This document shows, piece after piece, positions 17,960 to 37,322 of a stretch of DNA of 64,000 bases. The notes below the pieces were generated by a model. That model searched no databases. It worked only from the letters and a program-made list of their open reading frames with translations, and was not told where the DNA came from. This stretch comes from Armatimonadota bacterium (GTDB lineage Bacteria > Armatimonadota > Fimbriimonadia > Fimbriimonadales > Fimbriimonadaceae): assembly GCA_018268255.1 (NCBI GenBank), contig JAFDWX010000001.1:620001-684000 (forward strand). Reading direction: 5' to 3'. Made by a program: the position numbers and the translations under genes. Position 1 is the stretch's first letter. Each line of letters starts with the position of its first letter.

Positions 17960-18567
17960 GGGCCGTACTTCCTCAGGGCATCCAGATGCTCGGGTGTGGG
18001 GTAGCCGAAATGGTGCTGGAACCCATACTTAGGATACTGGACTGCGTATTCCAGCATCAAATCATCGCGTTGCTGCTTGGCGATGATGCTGGCGGCGGCA
18101 ACCGCTGCATACAATCCGTCGCCCTTGACCACTGGGTGCATCCGCACGCGTGATCCGGCAGGAATTCGATTGCCATCGACAAAGGCTTCCTTGATGTGGA
18201 TTCCCAATGCCTCCACCGAGGTTCGCATGGCGACCATTGTTGCCTCGAGGATGTTGATTTCGTCGATGGTTTGAGAATCCACAGCGTGCCAAGCGAACTC
18301 CGCGTGATTCACGATGCGCTGATATTGCTCGGCGCGTTGCTGGCGAGTGAGCTTCTTGGAATCTTGGATGCCTTCGAGCTCAAACGATTCCGGCAAGAGC
18401 ACCGCCGCCGCCACAACGGGACCCGCCAAAGGCCCTCGCCCAGCTTCATCCACCCCCGCGATGCCCGGAGTTGCGATGAGCGTGCACGAAGTCTCGGTGA
18501 ATCGGATCATGGTTCCGATAACACCGGACGATTGAACAGGCTGGGATGGCGCGGGTTTTCTCGCCAT
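17887..18567 (-). CDS. rnhB: ribonuclease HII
   Basis: 226 residues. Removes RNA from RNA-DNA hybrids, including single ribonucleotides. Motif GVDEAGRGPLAGPVVAAAV carries the first Asp-Glu pair, DGNRIP a further catalytic Asp, and AAVAAASIIAKQQRD the conserved AASIxAKxxRD. The start at 18567 has GGAG three bases upstream; a second ATG at 18510 would give a more usual N-terminus, so the start is uncertain. Confidence 0.95.
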   Translation of the reverse strand: MARKPAPSQPVQSSGVIGTMIRFTETSCTLIATPGIAGVDEAGRGPLAGPVVAAAVLLPESFELEGIQDSKKLTRQQRAEQYQRIVNHAEFAWHAVDSQTIDEINILEATMVAMRTSVEALGIHIKEAFVDGNRIPAGSRVRMHPVVKGDGLYAAVAAASIIAKQQRDDLMLEYAVQYPKYGFQHHFGYPTPEHLDALRKYGPCPIHRRSFAPVRVLVEEPALLVV

Positions 18568-18732
18568 GGGCTCCAAAGAGATACCCGAATCGAGGACTCA
18601 CTGGGAGAACTGGGGACGATGGGGCGACCTGAAGAATCGACAGTGCGGGCGCCTTGTGTTCCAGAAGACGTCCGTCCCAAAATCCCGCCTCGCGCAGGTG
18701 GCAATTGGCATCATAGATCAGTGCGCAGGCTT
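18568..18732. other. gap between rnhB and the accessory island
   Basis: 165 bases. No gene, clear promoter or repeat was recognised; it marks the edge between housekeeping genes and the AT-richer island. Confidence 0.4.
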
Positions 18733-19530
18733 TCACAAATCTGGTCTGCAATCGAAAATAAACTCGTTCTCGCTCCCGGTTGAAGAGGAGATTCTCCTCA
18801 AAACGATCTTATTGCCACGAAGATTGACTAAGTATGTCGTGGATTCTTCAGAGCTATGGGTCACTCCTTTCCACGAGTTTGTTGAAAGAGCGATCCAATC
18901 TATCGAGTCGGACATCGTTCCGAGAATATCCAAGTTCTCACATGGTTCTCCCATTTTCCGAAAATAGGTGCGAATACACTTAACACCACGGAACTCGCGA
19001 AAACAAAATCTATTTGCCTTAGCGCTATTGCAGCTAACACCTAGTGAGAGCCAATTTCCGTTCGATAAATAGAATAATGGGTACCCCGACTGAAATGTGT
19101 TTTTCAGGATGGCATAGTGCGGCTTGCTAACTTCAACGTACCACAGGTCAAACCATGAAAACCACTTTACAATGTCCTCTGGCTCATATTTCCTTGTCGC
19201 ACCATCGTCGTTTACGAAGCAAAAGGAAGTACGTCCGACAACAAGATGATTTGGAGTGTAAGTGGGCAATCTTAATGTTGTTGATTTCGAGTGCCCCAAT
19301 TTATTAACCAATTTAAGGATATGGCCTTTGGGCTCTACTACTGGAATCCACCGCGCTTTTGATGAGATTGATGGATGCAAATCCCAAGCTACCGTCTTCT
19401 TTCTCCAAACTCTTTGTTTTCCGTAGTAGATTGAGGTCACGGCGTCCGGCTGGATGACTTCTCCTGCGCAATATTCCACATGGAGCTTCTGGTTAAACAG
19501 AAGGATTGTTAGGAACGGAGAGATCATCAT
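18733..19530 (-). CDS. hypothetical secreted protein of the Rhs-remnant island
   Basis: 265 residues. A hydrophobic start (MMISPFLTILLF) may be a signal sequence. The body is beta-rich with repeated aromatic strands (RWIPVVEPKGHIL, FDLWYVEVSKPHYAIL, GYPLFYLSNGNW), suggestive of a propeller-like fold, and resembles in style the broken gene at 24.8-25.6 kb. In frame and without a stop it is preceded by SPYGYAQADTTGHSPLVT, a likely Rhs tip remnant, so the true start may lie further upstream at the neighbour's stop. AT-rich codon use unlike the flanking genes. No family recognised; an immunity-type protein is inferred from position only. Confidence 0.6.
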   Translation of the reverse strand: MMISPFLTILLFNQKLHVEYCAGEVIQPDAVTSIYYGKQRVWRKKTVAWDLHPSISSKARWIPVVEPKGHILKLVNKLGHSKSTTLRLPTYTPNHLVVGRTSFCFVNDDGATRKYEPEDIVKWFSWFDLWYVEVSKPHYAILKNTFQSGYPLFYLSNGNWLSLGVSCNSAKANRFCFREFRGVKCIRTYFRKMGEPCENLDILGTMSDSIDWIALSTNSWKGVTHSSEESTTYLVNLRGNKIVLRRISSSTGSENEFIFDCRPDL

Positions 19531-19605
19531 ATGAAAGGTTCTATCGTGTGTGACCAGTGGTGAGTGTCCCGTTGTATCGGCCTGGGCATAACCATAGGGA
19601 CTCCA
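19531..19605 (-). other. Rhs core-tip remnant (PYGYAQADTTG)
   Basis: The minus strand encodes WSPYGYAQADTTGHSP in frame with the 265-residue gene. It recalls the end of Rhs cores (PYGYAxxxPVxxxDPxG). The match is short and decayed. Confidence 0.35.
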
Positions 19606-20055
19606 TCAATCAGGTTCCTCATTGCTTATGTCTTTGGAGGACATCAGGATCTGGCCGATGGTAATCAAGAGAATCGACGGTAAGGAGGAACTCAGCAACA
19701 ATCCGACGGGGTAGAGGCCGGAGTCAAAGTTTGCAGCCCCTCCCTCTGGCAATGGAAACATCGCCAGGAAGGCAGTTAGACAAATTGGTGCAGCCAACAG
19801 CGCACACCCGGCTACGCCAAGTGCCCAGCCCAAACGGAACCTTGTGGTGTACTTCTTGAAGAATGGTATTGCGCTGGAGATTGCACAACTGGACACCATC
19901 GAAACAACGCTAAGAGCTATCACCGCCGCTGGCACGGTCAGATATGCAACGAGTAAAAAACGACCGGCCAAGGCAAGGGCGAGTGCTACTGCCGCTATCG
20001 CAATGCCTTGCACGCAGTTATACTGCTTCCATTTGTCGGCGGGACTTCTAAACAT
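19606..20055 (-). CDS. hypothetical four-helix membrane protein
   Basis: 149 residues from the ATG at 20055. Four membrane segments are visible (CVQGIAIAAVALALALAG, VAYLTVPAAVIALSVVSM, WALGVAGCALLAAPICLTAF, YPVGLLLSSSLPSILLITI) and a charged, acidic tail (SSKDISNEEPD). The start was chosen because it overlaps the stop of the short Rhs-like frame upstream as TGATG. Small multi-helix membrane proteins are a common form of immunity protein, but no homologue is recognised. Confidence 0.6.
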   Translation of the reverse strand: MFRSPADKWKQYNCVQGIAIAAVALALALAGRFLLVAYLTVPAAVIALSVVSMVSSCAISSAIPFFKKYTTRFRLGWALGVAGCALLAAPICLTAFLAMFPLPEGGAANFDSGLYPVGLLLSSSLPSILLITIGQILMSSKDISNEEPD

Positions 20056-20270
20056 CACCCCATTTGATTCCAGTATGCCTTGCACACACTGCTTCTACCT
20101 TGGTACGGATCTGAATTGCTCAAAATCGTGAATGTCATCCGCTTGGCTATCCCGATGCCTCCTGCGCTGCTGGAAACGTTGGCCGCCGATCCGAGAAAAG
20201 GAACGAGGTAGTCGTCTCCGTCCCGGATCAGCACATCCAGCGGCATAATCTGTCCTTGGCGCACCTTCAT
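20055..20270 (-). CDS. short Rhs-core-like ORF (copy E)
   Basis: 71 residues: starts MKVRQGQIMPLDVL, then DDYLVPFLGSAANVSSSAGGIGIAKRM and a divergent tail ending AYWNQMG. The LGSxxxxxSSAGGIGxAxRM pattern is shared with copies at 24.0 kb and 23.0 kb and resembles the Rhs segment YLVPDxLGSxRxxxxxxGxxxxRxxYxPYG. AAGG stands seven bases before the ATG. Its stop overlaps the next start (TGATG). It may be a translated leader or merely a decayed fragment. Confidence 0.45.
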   Translation of the reverse strand: MKVRQGQIMPLDVLIRDGDDYLVPFLGSAANVSSSAGGIGIAKRMTFTILSNSDPYQGRSSVCKAYWNQMG

Positions 20271-20344
20271 TCCCAAACCTTCGGACTGTGCAGACCCTCG
20301 TACTTCCAAATATTTAAACCCTTATAATCTGAAATAGTCATTGA

Positions 20345-21322
20345 TTATTCTATTGTACATTTGGCCAATCCAGCGTTCTTACCATCATCACTAACAAATC
20401 CGGCGTATAACTCATTTCCTTTCAATTGGATATCTATGATCTTGCTATATCCTTTCGGAGGGCGAACCAACGTTAATTCTAAACCTCCACGAACGCGTAC
20501 TAGAATTGCGGTACCATCTCGATTGAACAACCCAATCACATCTGAACTCACTTGCATCACAGAGCAGGAATTAACAGAGACTGTTCGCCGTGAGGTTCTG
20601 GTCGATATTGACACTGTTCTTCGATCGGCTGCGAAATCAACTGTCAACGACTCTCCACCAACAACATACTTGTTGTGGGCAATCCGCGTCGGTGGATTTA
20701 GACTTTCCACTTCCTGTTCACCTATACGCACTTTCGAACGTACACAATAGGGTGCAGGATCGGGTAGGAACTCGCCTCCTGAGCTGGTCTTTACTCGTTT
20801 GCCATTCGCCGATACAATGGACCACTTGAAGTCAGACTCTTGTTCAAGCCAGATTGGCCCAAGCGGTTTGTCGATGTTGAAGATTATGGCTATGGCTCCT
20901 GATGCTCGCTTATTAAACAATATAGACGAAGGTTTATCGAGCTGGCGGACTGATACGTAATAATCCGGAGCCTGTCTTTGTCCCAAGTAGAATATGTCCG
21001 AATCCCAGTAGAGGAGATCTGTTTGCTTTTCGGACACCTGAACAACTGGCTCTTGAGCACTTTGGTCTTTGTAGAACCTGATTCGGTCTTGCGTGCCTTC
21101 TCCACCATCAACCACAGCATATCCTTGGCCGCCAGATTGCCAAATCACATATGGGAGACCAGATACTGGAATAGTTCGGTATAACTCCAGTTGTAGGGTG
21201 CGAGCGGGAATCCCATGGGGTTCCGCGGCAGTCCTATTGCCGGAGTTATGACATCCAAGCTGGCATGCGCCTAAGTTGAAGATCGCCACAAGCACAGCAA
21301 CGTTTCGCTTCTTAAGTTCCAT
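20345..21322 (-). CDS. hypothetical lipoprotein, beta-rich
   Basis: 325 residues. The N-terminus MELKKRNVAVLVAIFNLGAC then QLGC gives two possible lipoboxes (LGAC at Cys20 or LGC at Cys24). The body consists of beta strands with WxSGGQGYAVVDGG, LLYWDSDIFYLG, YYVSVRQLD, IIFNIDKPLGPIW and a last ELYAGFVSDDGKNAGLA, suggesting a propeller with WD/Kelch-like blades. GGAG stands before the ATG. Position after an Rhs tip remnant suggests the island's common pattern. Function unknown. Confidence 0.65.
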   Translation of the reverse strand: MELKKRNVAVLVAIFNLGACQLGCHNSGNRTAAEPHGIPARTLQLELYRTIPVSGLPYVIWQSGGQGYAVVDGGEGTQDRIRFYKDQSAQEPVVQVSEKQTDLLYWDSDIFYLGQRQAPDYYVSVRQLDKPSSILFNKRASGAIAIIFNIDKPLGPIWLEQESDFKWSIVSANGKRVKTSSGGEFLPDPAPYCVRSKVRIGEQEVESLNPPTRIAHNKYVVGGESLTVDFAADRRTVSISTRTSRRTVSVNSCSVMQVSSDVIGLFNRDGTAILVRVRGGLELTLVRPPKGYSKIIDIQLKGNELYAGFVSDDGKNAGLAKCTIE

Positions 21323-21325
21323 AGA

Positions 21326-21466
21326 TTAGTTCCAATCTCCAGACAGACTAGTCCTGGAGTCTGCACCGTCGGCGACTCCTATGGCCCGCCTGTTAGTAGG
21401 CCCTTTGTGGGCAGGTGCTTCAGGCGGATTTGTCGCAACATAGCCGTAACGCCAACACCCCAGCAT
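21326..21466 (-). other. possible Rhs core-tip remnant (WRYGYVATNPPEAP)
   Basis: An open frame of 46 codons starts MLGCWRYGYVATNPPEAPAH and stops three bases before the lipoprotein ATG. RYGYVATNP resembles the closing YGYVxNNPV of Rhs cores. Too short to be sure. Confidence 0.35.
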
Positions 21467-21482
21467 CGGCAGTGAAGTAGGT

Positions 21483-22019
21483 CTAGCATTGCTTCCTCCA
21501 TCTTAAGAAGCAAAGTGGGAGAAGTGTGAAGTATCCGCCTGGAAAAATTGAGATGAGGATTGTCGAGTTTATGAGTTCGGTGCGGTTTTGAGAAGTCTCC
21601 CTCAAAAACGAATACCAGTAGCTCAAGGCCAGATAACCGAACAGAAAAACAAAATACGAAATCTTGAAAACCAACTGGTAGTCGGCTCGCTTCCACCAAA
21701 CTCTGTTGACTAAAGACGTAGTTGAGTCAGGTGTAACCTCCGCTTTGCGCCGAATCCGCTGGATCTGAACTTGAGTAAACAAGAGTGGCCAGAGGGTTAC
21801 AACACCTAAAAATGAAAGAACCTCGAGCAGGAGAATAAAGGGAGCAACCATTCGTAGGGCCACATCCTGCTCAAAGAAGGTCGCCACAAACATATACGCA
21901 AAGAGCAGGGTTGTCAGGACAAAGAATATCCCGCGAGCGACGTAATAGAGTTGCAGCGTCGAATTGCCGTGGTTCGACCGCATGGATGATCCGTTGCTTG
22001 TCGAAGTTTCAAATTCCAT
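21483..22019 (-). CDS. island membrane protein, paralog 2
   Basis: 178 residues. Polar N-terminus then about four membrane segments (GIFFVLTTLLFAYMFVATFF, APFILLLEVLSFLGVVTLWPLLF, YFVFLFGYLALSYWYSF, ILISIFPGGYFTLLPLCFL). PFILLxExLxxxGxxTxWPL and ISIFPGGYF are shared with the protein at 24268-24801, so the two are paralogs. CGGAGG lies five bases before the ATG, one of the strongest ribosome sites in the island. No known family recognised. Confidence 0.65.
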   Translation of the reverse strand: MEFETSTSNGSSMRSNHGNSTLQLYYVARGIFFVLTTLLFAYMFVATFFEQDVALRMVAPFILLLEVLSFLGVVTLWPLLFTQVQIQRIRRKAEVTPDSTTSLVNRVWWKRADYQLVFKISYFVFLFGYLALSYWYSFLRETSQNRTELINSTILISIFPGGYFTLLPLCFLRWRKQC

Positions 22020-22297
22020 AGTTGCCTCCGTAAGTTGGTGAATGGCAATGCCGAGCTTCGAAATGTAGCGAGATGGCGAGGCATCCCCTGCGGCTCACAT
22101 GACGGGCTTTGTTCCTTCGGCCAATGTTATCCAGCGTCTTGATCGTGCACATGGCAGTAACTCCCAGTATATGCCAGCTACGGCAAGACAAGCATGATTC
22201 AGCGACGAATCTTCGTTCAATTCATCCGCCTGACCGTCCAGTAGCCTCTAAACGCGGTGCTGAGGTTGGTCAAAGAGCTAGATCGGGCGAGCGTCAG
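22020..22297 (-). repeat. degenerate copy (D) of the island repeat
   Basis: Within this 278-base gap, 22158-22260 aligns with 24090-24200 (CCAGTATATG, ACGGC-AGAC-AG-ATGA, CGAATCTTCGT, GCGGTGCTG-GGTTGGTC) with many substitutions. It can be read as a decayed Rhs-like frame (AYTGSY matching SYTGRN). No intact gene is seen. Confidence 0.5.
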
Positions 22298-22888
22298 TCA
22301 TCGATTATACGTTAGGATTTTCACCTTTGCGCCAAAACGTTTGGCAACTTGATTGGCGCTAGATAGCGATTCATCATAGGCGATACCTTTCTGAATGGTT
22401 CTAAGAGTCGATTCAGCCTCTGAAACTGGCACTGTCCCAGTGAGTAAAACGCCTATCGCTGCCTTCTCGCGCGACCACATCAAAATTCCTGTAGTTGATT
22501 TCCGTTTGTCATAGCCTTGCGGCTGCCTCGTAAAGCCTTCTTCAACTCTGAGTATTGCAAGGGATCCGTCGGTATTGCGAAAGATGTTCTTGGCGTTCGT
22601 TTTGGCAAACATATCAGGCCCGTTGACTTCGGGGCCCATCGTCGCACTTGGGGAAATCGAAAGGAGCGACGAGTTTGGCATGAAAAAGTCATAGCTGTCG
22701 TCGGTAGGCCCTGGTTTAGGAACAGCTGCTTCAGGCAGTGGAACGATAAACCACTTTCTGTTGCGATCCTCCAGAGCGTAGTAGACATAGTGGGGAATGG
22801 GTGCCAACGGCGCCTTACTTGGGCCAAGCGATGCTAAGTTGCACCCCGAAAGTCCTATGAGTCCAATGAATAGATAGCTCTTTGGCAT
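22298..22888 (-). CDS. hypothetical lipoprotein
   Basis: 196 residues. Signal peptide with lipobox LSGC (MPKSYLFIGLIGLSGCNLAS). The mature protein is polar with YYALEDRNRKWFIVPLPE, SDPSLAILRVEEGF-like strands and ends VKILTYNR. The start at 22888 was chosen for the lipobox and because the Rhs-like frame upstream ends on it (TGATG); a longer in-frame extension to 23212 is not meaningful. No family recognised. Confidence 0.65.
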   Translation of the reverse strand: MPKSYLFIGLIGLSGCNLASLGPSKAPLAPIPHYVYYALEDRNRKWFIVPLPEAAVPKPGPTDDSYDFFMPNSSLLSISPSATMGPEVNGPDMFAKTNAKNIFRNTDGSLAILRVEEGFTRQPQGYDKRKSTTGILMWSREKAAIGVLLTGTVPVSEAESTLRTIQKGIAYDESLSSANQVAKRFGAKVKILTYNR

Positions 22889-23151
22889 CAACACAACCTG
22901 CCTAACAAATTCTTGAGCGCTCGGCGAACGAATCGCCAAATTCCTATGTTGTACTCCCCGATCCAGGTGCAGCCGGTGTATCGAGATCCGGTATTCCCGG
23001 TCCAGCCGAAACCTTTGCCAGAGAATGTCCCCGACAGAATCGTGCCGTAGGGCTTCCACCTTCTGGCAGTCCCGATGCCTCTTACTCTCTGGGTAGTGCG
23101 GTGAGGATCGGAGAAAAACGTTCGGCTGTAATTTCGGGTGGGTGCTACCAT
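22888..23151 (-). CDS. short Rhs/YD-core-end ORF (copy A)
   Basis: 87 residues. The centre reads GIGTARRWKPYGTILSG and then FGWTGNTGSRYTG, very like the end of an Rhs core (YxYKPYGxLLSxTGxxxxxFGWVGNxGYRxTG). It continues IGEYNIGIWRF where a full core would have YYVRARxYxxxxGRW, then stops after LKNLLGRLC without a toxin domain. The stop overlaps the lipoprotein start (TGATG). It begins 17 bases after the preceding gene. Best preserved of the island's fragments; whether it is translated is unknown. Confidence 0.55.
   Translation of the reverse strand: MVAPTRNYSRTFFSDPHRTTQRVRGIGTARRWKPYGTILSGTFSGKGFGWTGNTGSRYTGCTWIGEYNIGIWRFVRRALKNLLGRLC
23033..23072. repeat. 40-base exact repeat, copy 1
   Basis: Identical to 25638-25677 and continuing with weaker similarity on both sides. 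It encodes ARRWKPYGTIL on the minus strand, so two Rhs-like fragments 2.6 kb apart are close relatives. Confidence 0.9.
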
Positions 23152-23168
23152 AGGCTTTAAAACAGGCC

Positions 23169-24023
23169 CTAAGAAGCAATTGCCGTATACTGCGCCAAAT
23201 CTTGCACAGCAAGCATAATGTTCACCTGCCTCCATACATCTTCGCCGTGCAGGGCTTTGAAGTCGAGATCGGGTGCCCATAGACGCTCCTCAAATAGATA
23301 GGTATCAACTTGGCTAATGAGAGATTGCAGATCCGCACTAGCATCGGTGTATTTCCCAATACTCCAACAAGGTAGCAGAATTTGCTCAAAGTCCTCTTTC
23401 CTAAGCGAACTAACATGTCCCAAATCAATGAGATCTCGCCCTCGTTTGAGCAGTACGCTTAAGTTCCCGATCGCAGATAATCGTTCAGCTAATTCGTAGG
23501 GATCGACTGCGCACACAATTGGTACTCCTTCGGCTCCAGCCCAAAGGCCCTCAATTGTCTCAATGTCGCTATACAAAAGCCAGATCAGACAATACCGAAT
23601 CGCAGCTGCGTCCGCTCCCTGAATAGGCGGCAAAATAGTTTCATGGTTAATTAATACGTTAGTGGTTATAAATGTGGATTGAAAGTCCTCAAGCAAAACG
23701 CCATAGTGGGTAGCTCCCTCTCCTGTATAACCCATGGTCAAAAACGCAGGAAGGCAATATGCAGTAGCCACCGAACCGTAGTTAGTACAATAGACAGAAT
23801 CCGAGAATACTCGAGCCGCTTGCTGAGCGTTTAAGGGTCCGTTCGCCGCAGAGATAACTTTATAGAGGTCTTCCGTGTCGATGGTGTCAGGTAACCCCGC
23901 TTTTACTTGGTTCACAAGCTTTTGGCTAGGCAGGACACTCCTGGAAGCCCGGACTGCGCGATCAACAAGCGTGGCGTCAGGTGTGCTTAGCTTTATTTCA
24001 ATCTGCAAGGGGCTCCTTCTCAT
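23169..24023 (-). CDS. hypothetical soluble protein of the Rhs-remnant island
   Basis: 284 residues, no signal peptide or membrane segment. Mostly alpha-helical and acidic, with YGVLLEDFQSTFI, IRYCLIWLLYSDIETIEGLW, PYELAERLSAIGNLSVLLKRG and KEDFEQILLPCWSIGKY. The ATG overlaps the stop of short ORF C (ATGA). Size and lack of export signal fit a cytoplasmic immunity protein, but this is inference from position only; no family recognised. Confidence 0.65.
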   Translation of the reverse strand: MRRSPLQIEIKLSTPDATLVDRAVRASRSVLPSQKLVNQVKAGLPDTIDTEDLYKVISAANGPLNAQQAARVFSDSVYCTNYGSVATAYCLPAFLTMGYTGEGATHYGVLLEDFQSTFITTNVLINHETILPPIQGADAAAIRYCLIWLLYSDIETIEGLWAGAEGVPIVCAVDPYELAERLSAIGNLSVLLKRGRDLIDLGHVSSLRKEDFEQILLPCWSIGKYTDASADLQSLISQVDTYLFEERLWAPDLDFKALHGEDVWRQVNIMLAVQDLAQYTAIAS

Positions 24024-24271
24024 CCAATGATGTTTCGGTCGCGAAGTGCTTTGTGCAGCTGGGATGGGCGGTCTGAATCACGGGTGTTTCTACCAGTATA
24101 TGACACATACGGCGAGACGAGTATGACTCTGAGTCGAATCTTCGTCCACCTCATGCGAATGGCAGTCCCGATGCCTCCAGCGGCGGTGCTGGGGTTGGTC
24201 TCCGACCCCGAGGAAGATGTCCCCAGAATGTTTGGAATATTCGTCAGTGTGAGCGTTTCCACCTGTATCAC
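24020..24271 (-). CDS. short Rhs-core-like ORF (copy C)
   Basis: 83 residues from a GTG. Starts MIQVETLTLTNIPNILG, then STAAGGIGTAIRM shared with copy E (SSAGGIGIAKRM), then SYTGRNTRDSDRPSQLHKAL shared with fragment B. The GTG overlaps the upstream stop (GTGA) and its own stop overlaps the next ATG (ATGA), so it fits exactly between two genes. That fit argues for translation, at least as a coupling device. No function known. Confidence 0.5.
   Translation of the reverse strand: MIQVETLTLTNIPNILGTSSSGSETNPSTAAGGIGTAIRMRWTKIRLRVILVSPYVSYTGRNTRDSDRPSQLHKALRDRNIIG
24078..24105. repeat. 28-base exact repeat, copy 1
   Basis: Identical to 25747-25774; minus strand encodes SYTGRNTRD. Similarity continues on one side through GCAGCTGGGATG. 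Confidence 0.85.
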
Positions 24272-24801
24272 TCCCTCACCTCTTCCTGCAACTTCTGACT
24301 CGCAAGAACATCCTGGTAGCGGCCGATCCTGCGTGCTATCCTCCGCCTAACCAGTATGGGTCCAAATAGAAAGTATCCCCCAGGGAAGATTGAAATCCAG
24401 AATGTTGACCAGATCCAAGGCGTTTTCTTAGGTTCTGGCACATTTGAAAACCGCCAAACACAGATTGCAAGCCAAACAACTGCAATCACGATGTGAATTT
24501 TCCCCACTTTGGACAACACAAACTGTAGATTCTTGATTAGGACATTGCTCTCAGTAGAGCGCTTGGGATCAGCAAGCATCCTCACTTCCCATGCTTCAAC
24601 TTGTGAATCTACAATCCAAAGAGGCCAAATGGTCGCGAGACCCATGACGGTGAGTGATTCGGCAAGCAGAATAAAAGGTAGTTGGAATCGAATACTCATG
24701 CTCTGCTCAGAAAATGCTGCTCTGAGAATGTATAAGTAGTAAAGTGTTGTCACCCACCAAAACACCGATCTTGCATTTCGGTAACGATTCGGCTTGCCCA
24801 T
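24268..24801 (-). CDS. island membrane protein, paralog 1
   Basis: 177 residues with about four membrane segments (VFWWVTTLYYLYILRAAF, FILLAESLTVMGLATIWPLWIV, IHIVIAVVWLAICVWRF, FWISIFPGGYFLFGPILV). Shares PFILLxExLxxxGxxTxWPL and ISIFPGGYF with the protein at 21483-22019. Begins six bases after the end of the broken gene and overlaps ORF C by four bases (GTGA). Unknown family; both paralogs keep a charged cytosolic loop of similar size between helices 2 and 3. Confidence 0.65.
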   Translation of the reverse strand: MGKPNRYRNARSVFWWVTTLYYLYILRAAFSEQSMSIRFQLPFILLAESLTVMGLATIWPLWIVDSQVEAWEVRMLADPKRSTESNVLIKNLQFVLSKVGKIHIVIAVVWLAICVWRFSNVPEPKKTPWIWSTFWISIFPGGYFLFGPILVRRRIARRIGRYQDVLASQKLQEEVRE

Positions 24802-24807
24802 GAGCTT

Positions 24808-25566
24808 CTAGTTACTCCTAGAGTGCGTTGCCGGAACATCACCTGACCGTCTGACTAAACTAGTCGTAGGTATATTGCTACTGGATAATTCCTTGATCCA
24901 AAGATCAGCACCTTGAGCAGTTGGCAGCCAATCTTCCTGGGCGACCCTCCACTTCACTTTTCCGATTGGTGCAAATTGCCTATCGACCGACTGCCTGCAC
25001 ACGAAGAAGATGCCTCTTCCATCTGCAGGGGCGAAAGCTATCGTCTTCGCGTCTTTAGGCTCTATTAGCCCAAAAGTCTCGTCCGCATACGGATACTTGA
25101 TATGGGTGACGCAAGTCAATTGGCAGTTTTCAGATATTTAAAAAACGCCATAGGAATATGGCGTTGAATCGAGTTCTACAAGCGCTAGCTCGCCTTGCGC
25201 GGAGACTCCTATGAACCTTAAGCCCGCTATTGGAAGTTGTATTGAAGTTCGCTTCCATACAAGGAGTCTCTGATCTTCAGAAATCCAACCTATAGACTTA
25301 CTCCTATAGAATGAAAAGTACCCGCTGCCTTTCACAATTACAGATGCACGCTTTGTATTGACGAAATAGAATCTTTGATCCAAGGACAGCAACAATCGCT
25401 CTTTCGCGACCCACAAGAAGCGCTTATAGTATGGGAATGGAATCTTCAACTCGATGCGTGATTTGTTAACAATCAAGTCACCTCCTCTTAATTCGATCAC
25501 GCCACCAGGATGCAATTGTGGAACGAAAAGCGACCCCGAAAGGCATAGCAAGATGGAGGCAATCAT
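24808..25566 (-). pseudogene. beta-rich secreted protein broken by an in-frame stop
   Basis: Two frames, 25138-25566 (142 residues, signal-like MIASILLCLSGSLFVPQ) and 24808-25119, are in the same phase and separated by a single TAA at 25138-25140. Joined, they give 252 residues: ...DSTPYSYGVF [stop] ISENCQLTCVTHIKYPYADE..., with aromatic beta strands and KDAKTIAFAPADGRGIFFV. The stop sits in TTTTTTAAATATC, so one substitution (AAA to TAA) or a slip explains it. The first ATG overlaps the end of Rhs-like fragment B (ATGA). Length and style resemble the 265-residue protein at 18.7 kb. Confidence 0.65.
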
Positions 25567-25637
25567 CTCAACCCCCCGCGGTCACGAGCTTTGCGCAAAT
25601 ATTTGGTCCAACCGAGCCCCTTCGGGAAAATGTGCTG

Positions 25638-25677
25638 GACAGAATCGTGCCGTAGGGCTTCCACCTTCTGGCAGTCC
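25638..25677. repeat. 40-base exact repeat, copy 2
   Basis: Identical to 23033-23072; see that entry. Confidence 0.9.
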
Positions 25678-25746
25678 TGGTGCCTCCAACTCTCTGGAGG
25701 CGGATAGGATTGCGGGTTCTTGCGCAGCTGGGATGTGCGGTTTCGG

Positions 25747-25774
25747 TCACGGGTGTTTCTACCAGTATATGACA
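25747..25774. repeat. 28-base exact repeat, copy 2
   Basis: Identical to 24078-24105. Confidence 0.85.
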
Positions 25775-25877
25775 GCGGGCCCTGATTTCGGGCAGAATTA
25801 CGTAGAAATCCGTCGAATTGGGGAAAAGTACAAGTCCAGAACGATATTCTAGTTAAAACTGTGAGGGATCTCCGGCG

Positions 25878-26003
25878 GAATCCTCGACTTGAAGAGTTCC
25901 ATGGAGGGATTCCAAAGCAGAATCCTCGAACGGAGTGATTCCATGGTGGGATTCCAAAGCAGAATCCTCGGAATGAAGAGTTCCATGGAGGAATTCCAGA
26001 GCA
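25878..26003. repeat. three tandem 42-base repeats
   Basis: Units 25878-25919, 25920-25961 and 25962-26003, each beginning GAATCCT and ending AG(A)GCA, with about 4-8 differences between units, and a fourth truncated start at 26004. Each unit contains GAATCC...GGATTC-type inverted ends and the palindrome TCCATGGA in two of three. The period is a multiple of three; the minus strand can be read as FGIPPWN-containing repeats, but no start or ribosome site supports a gene. Confidence 0.9.
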
Positions 26004-26067
26004 GAATCCTGCCAAGATAATCCCCCAGGAAGGGTTTCTGCAGCACTTTTGCGACACTGGATCGCGG

Positions 26068-26205
26068 CCTGAGGTTCGGAACAGACGCCCTCCTTCTCCG
26101 CCGCCGGGCAGAGCTCCGTGGCCGTGGGATTTTGGTGGAAGTGCGAGGTTGAGGTCCACGGAGCGAGGGCGCGGCCTTGGGCGGCGGCGGAGAAGAACCT
26201 TCAGG
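26068..26205. repeat. long GC-rich inverted repeat, possible structured RNA
   Basis: Three nested arm pairs: 26068-26077 with 26195-26205, 26093-26105 with 26183-26195 (13 of 13), and 26113-26121 with 26156-26164 (9 of 9), around a 34-base apical loop. Strikingly GC-rich beside the AT-rich island. No gene here; none of the motifs of 4.5S RNA, tmRNA, RNase P or 6S RNA were recognised. Confidence 0.6.
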
Positions 26206-26277
26206 TGCCCCGAGCCGTCTCCCTTGCGATGGATCTCATCCGCCGAGGATTCCCGGGTTTGAGCCGATATTCATTGG

Positions 26278-26283
26278 TATAAT
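26278..26283 (+). promoter_or_regulatory. -10 box (TATAAT) of tRNA-Ser
   Basis: Consensus TATAAT 12 bases before the mature tRNA 5' end. The -35 region (GGGTTT, 17 bases upstream) is weak. Confidence 0.6.
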
Positions 26284-26295
26284 GCGAAGATCAGC

Positions 26296-34182: not shown

Positions 34183-35097
34183 CTAACGCTTGCACAACCC
34201 GAGATTCCCAACTCGGATCCCCAATTGAGTTTCGAGGATGGAAATTACAGATAGCTCCTCGTCGGCATTTGCTGCTAACAACGGCAACCGGACCGCGGCA
34301 TCTCCGATGACTCCCCAGTGCTTCAGGACCCCCTTGTGCACCTGCGGTTGAGGGACCGACCGGATGGTGCTGAGAACTTCTGAGAGCAACTGGAACTTGC
34401 ATTCGGCAGATGCGCGGCTCTCTGGACCACCCCACTCAGAAACTATCTGCGCGAGCCACTGCGGCACCACGTTTGCGGCTCCACTGATGCTCCCCGACCA
34501 CCCGTGCTCCAGCGCTTCAAGAAGGAGTGTCTCGTCTCCAACGAATAGGCGATGGTCCTTGCCTAACGCACTGCGATAGGTTTCTAAATTTTCCCGTTCG
34601 CCACTGCTGTCCTTGAGTCCAGCAAATTGCGGATGTTGGGCTAAACGCTGGAAAATCTCTGCTGAGATTCGAAAGCCGTTGTATTTGGGGAAGTTGTAGA
34701 TCAATACGGGAATCGGAGATTCGTCGAGCAAGGATTCGAGCCAGGCGGCCATCGCCGATTCCTCTACCTTGAAATAAGTTGGCGGCATAACAAGCAACCC
34801 TGCCGCGCCGAACTTTGCAGCCTGGTAGGCCAACCAACGAGCTTCTGTTAAGGCATTGGTCGCAATTCCTAGAAGAATCGGCAAGCCATTCGAAAGCGCT
34901 ACAGCTTCGCGAATGAGGTCTCGCTTTTCCACTGCAGCGAGTGAGGGGCCTTCTCCGTTTGTTCCGGCGACCACCACTCCGGCACAACGGGCCGCCTGGA
35001 AAAATGCGAGCAACCTAGCCACGGAAGGGTAGTCGATCTCGCCCGATTCCGTAAAGGGTGTCACCATCGCGGGCATCACACCCAAAGGCACGCTCAT
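34183..35097 (-). CDS. dihydrodipicolinate synthase/N-acetylneuraminate lyase family aldolase
   Basis: 304 residues. Class I aldolase barrel: MPAMVTPFTESGEID, AGTNGEGPSLA, conserved Tyr in LIYNFPKYNG and the Schiff-base Lys in FAGLKDSSG. NGEG instead of TTGE suggests a substrate other than the DapA one, perhaps a sugar acid; the adjoining divergent glycosidase fits. ATG at 35097 is six bases after TAGAAT. Confidence 0.88.
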   Translation of the reverse strand: MSVPLGVMPAMVTPFTESGEIDYPSVARLLAFFQAARCAGVVVAGTNGEGPSLAAVEKRDLIREAVALSNGLPILLGIATNALTEARWLAYQAAKFGAAGLLVMPPTYFKVEESAMAAWLESLLDESPIPVLIYNFPKYNGFRISAEIFQRLAQHPQFAGLKDSSGERENLETYRSALGKDHRLFVGDETLLLEALEHGWSGSISGAANVVPQWLAQIVSEWGGPESRASAECKFQLLSEVLSTIRSVPQPQVHKGVLKHWGVIGDAAVRLPLLAANADEELSVISILETQLGIRVGNLGLCKR

Positions 35098-35102
35098 ACG
35101 GA

Positions 35103-35109
35103 TATTCTA
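35103..35109. promoter_or_regulatory. overlapping divergent -10 boxes
   Basis: TATTCT (35103-35108, plus strand) lies six bases before the GTG at 35115; TAGAAT (35109-35104, minus strand) lies six bases before the ATG at 35097. The two boxes share five base pairs, so polymerase cannot occupy both at once. Confidence 0.65.
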
Positions 35110-35114
35110 GCCTT

Positions 35115-37322
35115 GTGAAGTTGGTGAATTGGACAGTCGATTACGGTTCCGGCGCGAAGGAGATCACCGTGCCCCACGGATGGGGGCAAGACGTCGATAT
35201 CCGGTGGGAAGGCCCAGCCACGTATCGCGCTTCCTTCACCTGTCCCACGGACAACCCGGTGATGAGGTTCCACGGAGTCTCATACCTTGCTGCGGTGAAA
35301 ATCAATGGTGGGGAACCATTCACACACGAAGGGATTTGGGACGCCTTCGATGTACCTGTCAGAGCTAAGGCTGGGGCGCAGGTCGAAGTTGAGGTCCAAG
35401 TGATCAAGAACGGAGGTGTTACGTTCCCCGTCCGAGATGTACTGAGCGGATTCTATCCGTACGTTTTTAACACTTTCGGCGGCATTTTCCGTGACGTTGA
35501 AATCGTCGCCGGGGCGCCCGAGGCCGCGCCCTCGCTCCTCCTTCGTCGGAGTTCCGCCCACCCCGACGCCGATCCATATCGCTGGAAAGGAAACTATGTG
35601 CGGGGCGTGCTCACCTGGGGCTGGTATCCGGAATTCCCACATTGCAACCCGGACTTGGCGACCATACAAGGGGAACTGGATCAGGTCGAGTCCCTGGGAT
35701 TCAATTTGGTGAAGTTCTGCCTGTGGATGCCGCCCCACGCTTATCTGGAAGAGATGGCAAAGCGCGGATTGGCAGCGTGGCTGGAACTTCCGCTCTGGGA
35801 TCCGTCCGAGGACCCGATTCACCAAAAGAAAATGGCGGATGAGATCATCCGCATCGTTGAGCAGTACAAGAATCATCCCAACGTGCTGATGTGGACCATC
35901 GGCTGTGAACTGAGCACCTCGACCTCACCGGAATTCCGTCGTGACTTGGTGCAGAGAGTCGTGGATTTAACCGGCTGTCCGTGGGTGAAAGACAATTCCG
36001 GCGGAGCCGAGATGTACGGCGGAGATCCTCGCGAGTTCGGCACCTTTGACGACTTCCATCCCTACTGCGACACACACTACTTCCCAGTTGTTCTAGATTC
36101 CTTGCTTCCGGGTCCCCGAGAGTCGCTTCCGATCTTTCTGGGTGAAACGAACGACTATGATGTCCATCGGGATCTTGCCCGGATCAAAAATCTCGATCCA
36201 TATTGGGCGTCAGCGGACCCAAGCTTGAATGACCAGGGCGTTCGGTGGCAATTTGATCTGCCGGACCTCCTGGCTGGAGGCACGCCATTGGTCAATCAGC
36301 CTGAACGGAGTTCGAAGCTGGAAGTCGCGAGCCACCAAAAGTCCGTTTTCATCAGGAAGTACGTGAACCAAGCTTTCCGAGGCAGGGAGAAAATTCGAGG
36401 GTTTGTCATAACCGGTTGGAGAGACACTCCGATCGCGGGCTCGGGGATGCAGTTGGATAATGGCTCCCTCCGCTTTACTCCGGAGGAGTTGGCGGATTGG
36501 AACAAACCGGATTGCTTCTATCTCATTCCTCGGCGGAGACCTCCCTTTACGGACGGCGGCAATCGCCCGGGTTGGCAAGATCCGTTCACCCATTTCGAGG
36601 GACCCGTTGTTCTCAAAATCGGGATGCACAGCGAGTTTGGTTTGGGTGGAGAGGTGCAGTGGTCGTTGGGTGAACACTGCGGATATTTATCCGCTAACCT
36701 CCGTGCACTTGAGTCCAGGGAGTTGGGCCAAATCGTGGTCGAAGGACTTCGACCTGGACGGTACGAATTGTCGGTCGGCACCCAACGCTGGCCGATCACG
36801 GTCGTCCCGAAGCCAGAGTGGCCCTCGCGTGCGATGTGGCACCTTGAGGATCCGTATGACAAGGCTCGAATCAAGCTGGCGGATGGTCCCCTCGTGCTGA
36901 AGATCGGGGGAGACCCTCCGCCGTGCGATCAGAGCGGAATCTGGTTACCGATTGGGAGCCATCAAACTTCTCGAAAGCCGTTCTGGCGCGAATGCATCCA
37001 CGAATTCGCCGGCAACTCGCCGATAGCGGAACTTGAATTCCAGTGGGAACAGATGCTCGCGATCGGGAGCGAAGGTGTATTGACCCAACATCTCCAGCCC
37101 CATGATGCCGCTCAAGTCGAGACCTGGATGACTCGCATCGATACTCGCAACTACGCGGAAGACCCAGTTGTGGCGCGAGTTCAATGCGGTCCGGTCTCAC
37201 AGATTTGGTGTGCGCTGGATCTCTTTGGCGGCTCAGGCGTTCAGCCGTACGGGCTCAACCAGAACCCAGCCGGAGCAACGGTGCTCGGACGCCTCATGGA
37301 TTTCCTGGAATCTTGCCGGTAG
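35115..37322 (+). CDS. glycoside hydrolase family 2-like protein
   Basis: 735 residues from a GTG. N-terminal jelly-roll (ITVPHGWGQDVDIRWEGPATYRASF, VKINGGEPFTHEGIWDAFDV), then a TIM barrel with LVKFCLWMPPHAYLEEMAKRGLAAWLELPLWD, the putative acid/base Glu in LMWTIGCELS (usual GH2 motif is NE) and nucleophile Glu in IFLGETNDYD, and C-terminal beta domains. No signal peptide, so an intracellular beta-glycosidase is likely; specificity unknown. The Cys-Glu in place of Asn-Glu is unusual and should be checked. Confidence 0.75.
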   Translation: MKLVNWTVDYGSGAKEITVPHGWGQDVDIRWEGPATYRASFTCPTDNPVMRFHGVSYLAAVKINGGEPFTHEGIWDAFDVPVRAKAGAQVEVEVQVIKNGGVTFPVRDVLSGFYPYVFNTFGGIFRDVEIVAGAPEAAPSLLLRRSSAHPDADPYRWKGNYVRGVLTWGWYPEFPHCNPDLATIQGELDQVESLGFNLVKFCLWMPPHAYLEEMAKRGLAAWLELPLWDPSEDPIHQKKMADEIIRIVEQYKNHPNVLMWTIGCELSTSTSPEFRRDLVQRVVDLTGCPWVKDNSGGAEMYGGDPREFGTFDDFHPYCDTHYFPVVLDSLLPGPRESLPIFLGETNDYDVHRDLARIKNLDPYWASADPSLNDQGVRWQFDLPDLLAGGTPLVNQPERSSKLEVASHQKSVFIRKYVNQAFRGREKIRGFVITGWRDTPIAGSGMQLDNGSLRFTPEELADWNKPDCFYLIPRRRPPFTDGGNRPGWQDPFTHFEGPVVLKIGMHSEFGLGGEVQWSLGEHCGYLSANLRALESRELGQIVVEGLRPGRYELSVGTQRWPITVVPKPEWPSRAMWHLEDPYDKARIKLADGPLVLKIGGDPPPCDQSGIWLPIGSHQTSRKPFWRECIHEFAGNSPIAELEFQWEQMLAIGSEGVLTQHLQPHDAAQVETWMTRIDTRNYAEDPVVARVQCGPVSQIWCALDLFGGSGVQPYGLNQNPAGATVLGRLMDFLESCR

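Follow-up and report, generated by a model that had tools for sequence, protein, structure and literature searches.

The window, by which we mean the whole 64,000-nucleotide stretch of a Fimbriimonadaceae genome that was analysed, carries a tRNA-Ser gene next to a GC-rich inverted repeat (26068-26205), at a boundary where a low-GC island ends. Taken in 500-nt steps, GC content is 0.44-0.52 over 18,501-26,000 and 0.53-0.59 around it, with one exception at 28.0 kb (0.50), in agreement with a sequence-only reading of this DNA that had the repeat standing out in base composition from an island on one side. The frames within the low-GC run (18.5-26 kb) lie on the minus strand, and the five proteins tested from it gave no Pfam match at E<=0.01; the plus-strand gene that follows the tRNA-Ser encodes an SLT transglycosylase. 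The same reading had proposed three nested arms of 11, 13 and 9 pairs around a 34-base apical loop. A base-by-base check confirmed the loop and found every pair of the 13-bp and 9-bp arms in place; in the outer arm (26068-26078 with 26195-26205) 9-10 pairs form, with a one-base bulge, and this arm falls outside the element. The features, with P1 and P2 denoting the two helices, are as follows.

26093..26195 (103 nt), + strand: whole element, a copy of a dispersed two-helix palindrome; limits from the model match at 26095-26193 and the end of a paralogue at 26195
26093..26105, + strand: P1 5' arm, 13/13 pairs with 26183-26195
26106..26112, + strand: 5' core GGGCAGA, with pairs A26110-T26178, C26109-G26179 and G26106-C26182
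26113..26121, + strand: P2 5' arm, 9/9 pairs with 26156-26164
26122..26155, + strand: apical loop of 34 nt, longer than in most family copies
26156..26164, + strand: P2 3' arm, 9/9 pairs with 26113-26121
26165..26182, + strand: 3' core GAGGGCGCGGCCTTGGGC, 27 matches in the own genome at <=2 mismatches, reversed control 0
26183..26195, + strand: P1 3' arm, 13/13 pairs with 26093-26105
26068..26078, + strand: 5' half of the outer arm, outside the element; its 3' partner (26196-26205) is missing from the paralogue
35503..35572, - strand: second copy in the window, model match of 46.8 bits (E 1.8e-7), within a GH2-like frame

P1 extends to 14 pairs if the adjoining 26106-26182 pair is counted. The outer arm is offset from P1 by about 15 bases on the 5' side and by none on the 3' side, and we place it outside the repeated unit because homology with the paralogue (G000:C1:697701-697828, 95% identity over 128 nt) stops exactly at 26195, without the 3' half of that arm. 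Across 134 family copies, the first position beyond the ends of the model pairs in 102 (shuffled mean 53.6, maximum 71) and the second in 68 (shuffled maximum 62), while from the third outwards pairing does not exceed that of the shuffles. The paralogy itself covers about 0.5 kb, matching window 25699-26195 to G000:C1:697701-698281 on the minus strand at 77% over 582 alignment columns; the two stretches are inverted and 51 kb apart, the element lies at one end, 42-bp tandem repeats (25878-26010) occupy the middle, and a 55-bp piece of the duplicated stretch recurs in the island at 24051-24105 (87% identity to the paralogous locus L002).

Folding energy gives no evidence for structure in the inverted repeat (z -0.32, with 78 of 200 shuffles folding equally well); chance is excluded by the family, through stem covariation and through a covariance model that was trained without the window copy and matches it at 26095-26193 with 66.6 bits (E 1.3e-11 for the window). 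At gathering scores Rfam matches nothing in the window but the tRNA, which upholds the suggestion that the repeat is not a standard housekeeping RNA; a search of 25950-26290 at E up to 10 gave three weak matches far under their gathering scores, and Rfam holds no family for the element.

A family of palindromes in Fimbriimonadaceae and in MAGs labelled Rickettsiales

A blast search with the 138-nt repeat as query led to five more places in the own genome, and to weak ones in 4 of 60 relatives, at which the same core is flanked by arms that differ yet remain complementary. The family design that emerges consists of a variable P1, a 5' core GGGCRGA, a variable P2 and a 3' core GAGGGCGHGGCMTYGGGC. 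With at most two mismatches allowed, the 18-nt 3' core, besides its 27 own-genome matches, has 18, 8 and 8 matches in G001, G003 and G004 (reversed controls 1, 0 and 1), none in G002, which is of the same genus, and 0 to 8 in other relatives, where controls gave 0 to 4. Pattern hits were dropped by script and by hand if they had no P1, a wrong start or came from distant genomes, leaving alignments of 42 (A1), 28 (A2) and 14 rows (A3), and the model (R1) was built on the 14 rows of A3.

At E<=0.01, the search for further copies in the genome that the sequence-only reading had proposed returned 54 model matches in the own genome (G000), alongside 43 in G001, 38 in G003, 29 in G027 and 14 in G004; poorer hosts are G007 (6), G023 (5), G031 (3) and G002 (1). 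The distribution is patchy, in that 9 of 61 related genomes are positive with the best 84 candidates per genome scored, and the other 52 gave no match at this threshold, although most yielded hundreds to thousands of first-look candidates. Across the phylum, the model, applied to the best 17 candidates of each genome, detects the element at E<=1e-4 in 16 of 291 genomes, which represent 8 genera of a single family; the Fimbriimonadaceae MAG labscale reactor_MAG7 is another host. Matches span about 60-105 nt, a few being shorter. In the drafts, many copies are found about 80 nt or less from the end of a contig (in G001 on C152, C26, C80, C90, C59 and C103, in G003 on C99 and C167), as if repeats or hairpins broke the assemblies, and draft copy numbers are for that reason likely too low. 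Near elements of G003 there is also a hairpin of the type GCCGAGGCGCAG...GAGGGCGTGGCCTCGGGG (L008 at 1942 and 2564 on the plus strand, L066 at 2079 on the minus strand), related but different, which may represent a sister family.

A pattern scan of the genome collection gave at least 110 stretches, many of them without P1 pairing, which look like coding coincidences; of 100 of these loci scored by the model, 29 matched at E<=0.05. Matches at E<=0.01 are numerous in three MAGs that were deposited as Rickettsiales and whose assemblies measure 0.8-1.0 Mb: RGIG3562 from goat rumen (38), SRR873596_bin.56 (41) and RGIG4838 from roe deer rumen (32). In the Rickettsiales-labelled copies P1 is nearly constant (TTGTTGCGC type) and the core is that of Fimbriimonadaceae, and the elements have 63-75% GC against 37-42% in the six loci measured. 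Their 34 distinct rows are paired in 90.5% of stem cells (80.8% when shuffled), with 62 double-change cells against 21. In a tentative version of the mobile-hairpin reading taken up below, the core would have been kept in Fimbriimonadaceae and in Rickettsiales, probably by transfer, with convergence as the alternative. Carriage by viruses was rejected, as the two pattern hits in viral contigs scored weakly with the model (E 0.22 and 0.46).

Covarying stems around a conserved internal loop

The family alignment holds 134 matches (131 distinct) from 100 loci, other copy-bearing loci being left out, and leans towards structure since it was fitted to the model. Covariation, whose absence had been named beforehand as the finding that would speak against a structured element, is strong in the family. 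Among the 131 distinct copies, standard pairs occupy 91.0% of the stem cells, compared with 60.0% in shuffles and 36-41% in slid registers, stem cells changed on both sides number 797 against 218, and covariation scores 0.684 where shuffles give 0.163; the number of pairs with any double change shows no excess (20 versus 19.4 shuffled). The same pairing trend is seen when 47 copies are registered by hand and listed without gaps, several of them being out of register. The R-Y pair of the core covaries as well (G-C 81, A-U 46, G-U 3, other 1), and the G.G opposition beside it is invariant across the family. What had been put forward as a structured RNA is thus upheld as structured, the folded strand being either RNA or single-stranded DNA.

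Mismatch cells in the stems are G.T in 54 cases and A.C in 19 (G.A in 190), and because G.T outnumbers A.C the strand as written is favoured for folding. Apical loops are most often triloops of the GNA type: in the 120 distinct P2, our script counted 42 GNA triloops, 6 GNRA and no UUCG loops, counts that shared descent inflates. GNA triloops are unusually stable in DNA, and this preference hints at single-stranded DNA.

Genomic setting of the copies

Gene context rests on calls made by our own codon-bias script, as does proximity to stop codons. The 47 own-genome copies lie between convergent (12), codirectional (11) or divergent (6) genes, inside genes (4), far from genes or in unclear positions (10) and at locus ends (4), so that 29 of 47 are clearly between two called genes, which is the extragenic habit of the REP class. 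Copies occur in both orientations. In the own genome, 26 placements (10 sense, 16 antisense) are no more than 40 nt from a stop codon and 10 no more than 40 nt from a start; for all 134 copies the stop-codon counts are 16 in sense and 30 in antisense orientation, where a copy flanked by convergent genes can be counted twice. With local GC skew as a proxy for the replication strand, 72 copies agree and 62 disagree. Some of the calls inside genes look like start-codon artefacts, e.g. the frame through L004.

Most copies are single. Where neighbours are less than 400 nt apart they are head-to-head in 13 of 13 cases (loci L255 and L256 being near-duplicates), and the frames between neighbouring copies in the listed loci include no obvious mobile gene; the one gene checked with Pfam, in L055, has glutamine amidotransferase and phosphoribosyltransferase domains. 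Compared pairwise, own-genome loci share flanks only in L001 and L002 (the window copy and its paralogue), and a larger repeated unit was accordingly rejected; common flanks do occur among loci of G027 and some of G003. In G027, the elements of L228, L229, L230, L222 and L225 have repeated flanks and sit beside repetitive frames, which suggests larger composite repeats. No target-site duplication or empty site was resolved at base level.

Copies also occur in frame inside genes. In the own genome, a hemW-like gene (L271) with Radical_SAM and HemN_C domains (Pfam) contains an element within an in-frame insertion of 38 aa. All 10 orthologues that could be read are without it (row L274, read in a wrong frame, is not counted), and this is one species-specific insertion; about 15 residues of it, preceding the element, are not accounted for by the element. 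A SelB-type gene of G001 has an in-frame model match within its beta-barrel domain, and in the window the GH2-like frame (35058-37037, plus strand) stays open through the second copy. This GH2-like gene was rejected as proof of insertion, its orthologues having a variable linker and no clean insertion. For the L055 region, the hemW-like gene and the GH2-like gene, the surroundings of orthologues in relatives were searched as well, and none of these 22 loci contains an element at E<=1. A further copy in a GH38-type gene (L050:2847-2927) is a pattern hit that is absent from the model matches at E<=0.01.

Explanations for the family and comparison with known systems

With its covarying fold, its copy numbers, its patchy distribution and its head-to-head pairs, the family appears to represent a REP-type mobile hairpin of a new kind. 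The reading that we consider probable is that of a REP-like dispersed palindrome, most copies being about 60-105 nt long, that has spread as a non-autonomous mobile hairpin. One strand folds so that P1 and P2 enclose an asymmetric internal loop that hardly varies, and a putative trans-acting enzyme, proposed by analogy with REPs, would recognise the folded single strand via this loop and move the element. In this manner it would have spread through some genomes, inserting for the most part into intergenic DNA close to 3' gene ends and now and then in frame within genes, and two copies could come to sit head-to-head; any use by the host, e.g. at transcript ends, would be secondary. On the same analogy, what such a trans-acting candidate protein recognises would be the conserved internal loop. 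The divergence of P1 and P2 between copies goes far beyond what simple copying would lead one to expect, and counts against the mobile-hairpin explanation, as do the absence of REP tags, the lack of a Y1 transposase in most hosts searched, the lack of a target-site duplication or empty site at base level and the unaccounted residues of the hemW-like insertion. One version of it, which we put forward tentatively, is a system outside the HUH/Y1 class, in which a putative protein would bind the loop of the folded strand (the core R-Y pair, the facing G.G and the 3' strand GAGGGCGHGGC) and spread the hairpin, with the stems freely rewritten and the loop kept in both groups; rewriting, perhaps by hairpin-templated repair, would leave P1 and P2 different at each locus and still paired.

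The tags and the transposase of REP systems were looked for in the Fimbriimonadaceae copies and in the hosts. A GTAG tag is not enriched, being present in the 5' flank of 2 of 134 copies and in the 3' flank of none (4.3 expected each), and CTAC stands in 0 and 7 of 134 flanks (3.9 expected each). Nor is CGTC enriched (13 and 8 of 134) or GACG (11 and 10), with about 9 expected for each. Within the limits of Pfam sensitivity and of draft genomes, 16 of 20 element-bearing genomes have no match to Y1_Tnp (PF01797) at E<=0.001, among them G000, G001, G003, G027 and the three Rickettsiales-labelled MAGs; the element-bearing genomes with matches are G007, G154, G167 and G295. As Y1_Tnp is also present in 5 of 8 element-free relatives searched, a RAYT was rejected as the driver.

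The main rival to mobility is an RNA role, in which the element would be a structured motif of transcripts (a 3' UTR stabiliser, a processing or protein-binding site or an attenuator) selected at many loci. It accounts for the strong covariation, including that of the core pair, and for the asymmetry of G.T over A.C; placement near 3' gene ends and a conserved internal loop, typical of a binding site, fit it too. The missing sense bias near stop codons (16 sense against 30 antisense in the 134 copies) and the patchy presence are not accounted for, and the latter, together with the copies inside genes and the head-to-head doublets, fits mobility better; the preponderance of GNA triloops (42/120) over GNRA (6/120) and the lack of an Rfam family also weigh against an RNA motif, which we judge rather unlikely. 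An intergenic hairpin acting as a bidirectional intrinsic terminator or as an insulator is improbable by comparison, a role in termination being among those that the sequence-only reading had listed. Convergent genes do flank 12 of the 47 own-genome copies, and in the Rickettsiales-labelled set a T-tract (6 of 8) follows 7 and 4 of 40 copies on the two sides where 2.0 are expected, so that some copies there may also act as terminators. In Fimbriimonadaceae, such tracts follow 4 of 134 copies on the plus side and 1 of 134 on the minus side (1.4 expected), which weakens the terminator and led us to reject it for these copies; moreover, termination does not call for a conserved internal loop, and the family includes intragenic copies.

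The sequence-only reading had also considered an integration or transposition end. Of this, behaviour as a mobile palindrome is retained, in the form of a whole small element at many sites, while an island end is not. That the element marks the terminus of the low-GC island next to tRNA-Ser, or served as its attachment site, as its place at the GC boundary and the ending of the paralogous 0.5 kb (G000:C1:697701-698281) at the same element base could suggest, is very improbable: such a setting is lacking, by construction of the search, at 52 other own-genome model matches, 100 nt separate the unit from the tRNA, and of 40 own-genome loci scanned just two have a tRNA about 100 nt or less from the element, the window copy (L001) and L062. 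A tmRNA lies 60 nt from the element in L212. The tRNA-Ser neighbour looks incidental.

On the mobile-hairpin reading, a family present in two distant phyla, in genomes where no RAYT turned up, makes the spread of palindromes with no known transposase (of which CGTC REPs are an example) directly testable, and to fish for the candidate partner protein the conserved loop offers itself as bait. A further use of the covariance model is annotation: it can label dozens of intergenic stretches, both in Fimbriimonadaceae and in Rickettsiales-labelled MAGs from gut and rumen. No earlier description of the motif was found in searches of open PubMed Central texts. Its working is REP-like, yet it is without tags, exceeds REP size, has no Rfam family and has no earlier description that we found, and we therefore regard it as a new form of a known type of element.

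Integron attC sites likewise have a folded strand with variable arms, are recognised by structure and lie behind stop codons. Unlike them, the present element is dispersed and not arrayed, and by eye the attC boxes are not seen in its core.

REPs, according to PMC3733652, are 20-40 bp long, lie at 3' gene ends, form dimers and have intragenic copies; REPINs have the same genomic habits according to PMC3116915, and TnpA-REP recognition, as PMC8266576 describes it, is specific for one strand of folded single-stranded DNA and makes use of stem irregularities. As these three sources portray REPs, REPINs and BIMEs, the family resembles them in its high copy number, its mostly extragenic position near 3' ends, its inverted doublets, its occasional in-frame copies in genes, its patchy presence across species, its strand-specific fold and its irregular stem. 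With REPINs it shares the inverted doublets (all 13 close neighbours), yet most of its copies are single. At two to three times the 20-40 bp given for REPs in PMC3733652 it lies outside their size definition.

The CGTC REPs are closer in some respects. PMC3733652 gives them stems of 8-9 bp and loops of 4-5 nt, mostly in head-to-head dimers, with intragenic copies, without a known dedicated transposase, and with an occurrence in alphaproteobacteria that includes Rickettsia RPE-4 and RPE-6. Head-to-head dimers, the lack of a known dedicated transposase, intragenic copies and an occurrence in alphaproteobacteria (here the MAGs labelled Rickettsiales) are all found in our family; it is set apart from that description by the absence of a CGTC tag and by a P1 of about 13 bp combined with P2 and a fixed internal loop. 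In-frame copies within protein genes, as the same source describes for the longer palindromic elements of Rickettsia (RPE-1), are a further likeness by description, unlike RPE-1 most copies here being intergenic. Tagged REPs are tied to RAYT transposases and to a terminal tag; here, in contrast to GTAG REPs and REPINs, the richest hosts were searched without finding Y1/RAYT, and REP habits go together with another conserved feature, an internal loop in place of the terminal GTAG foot.
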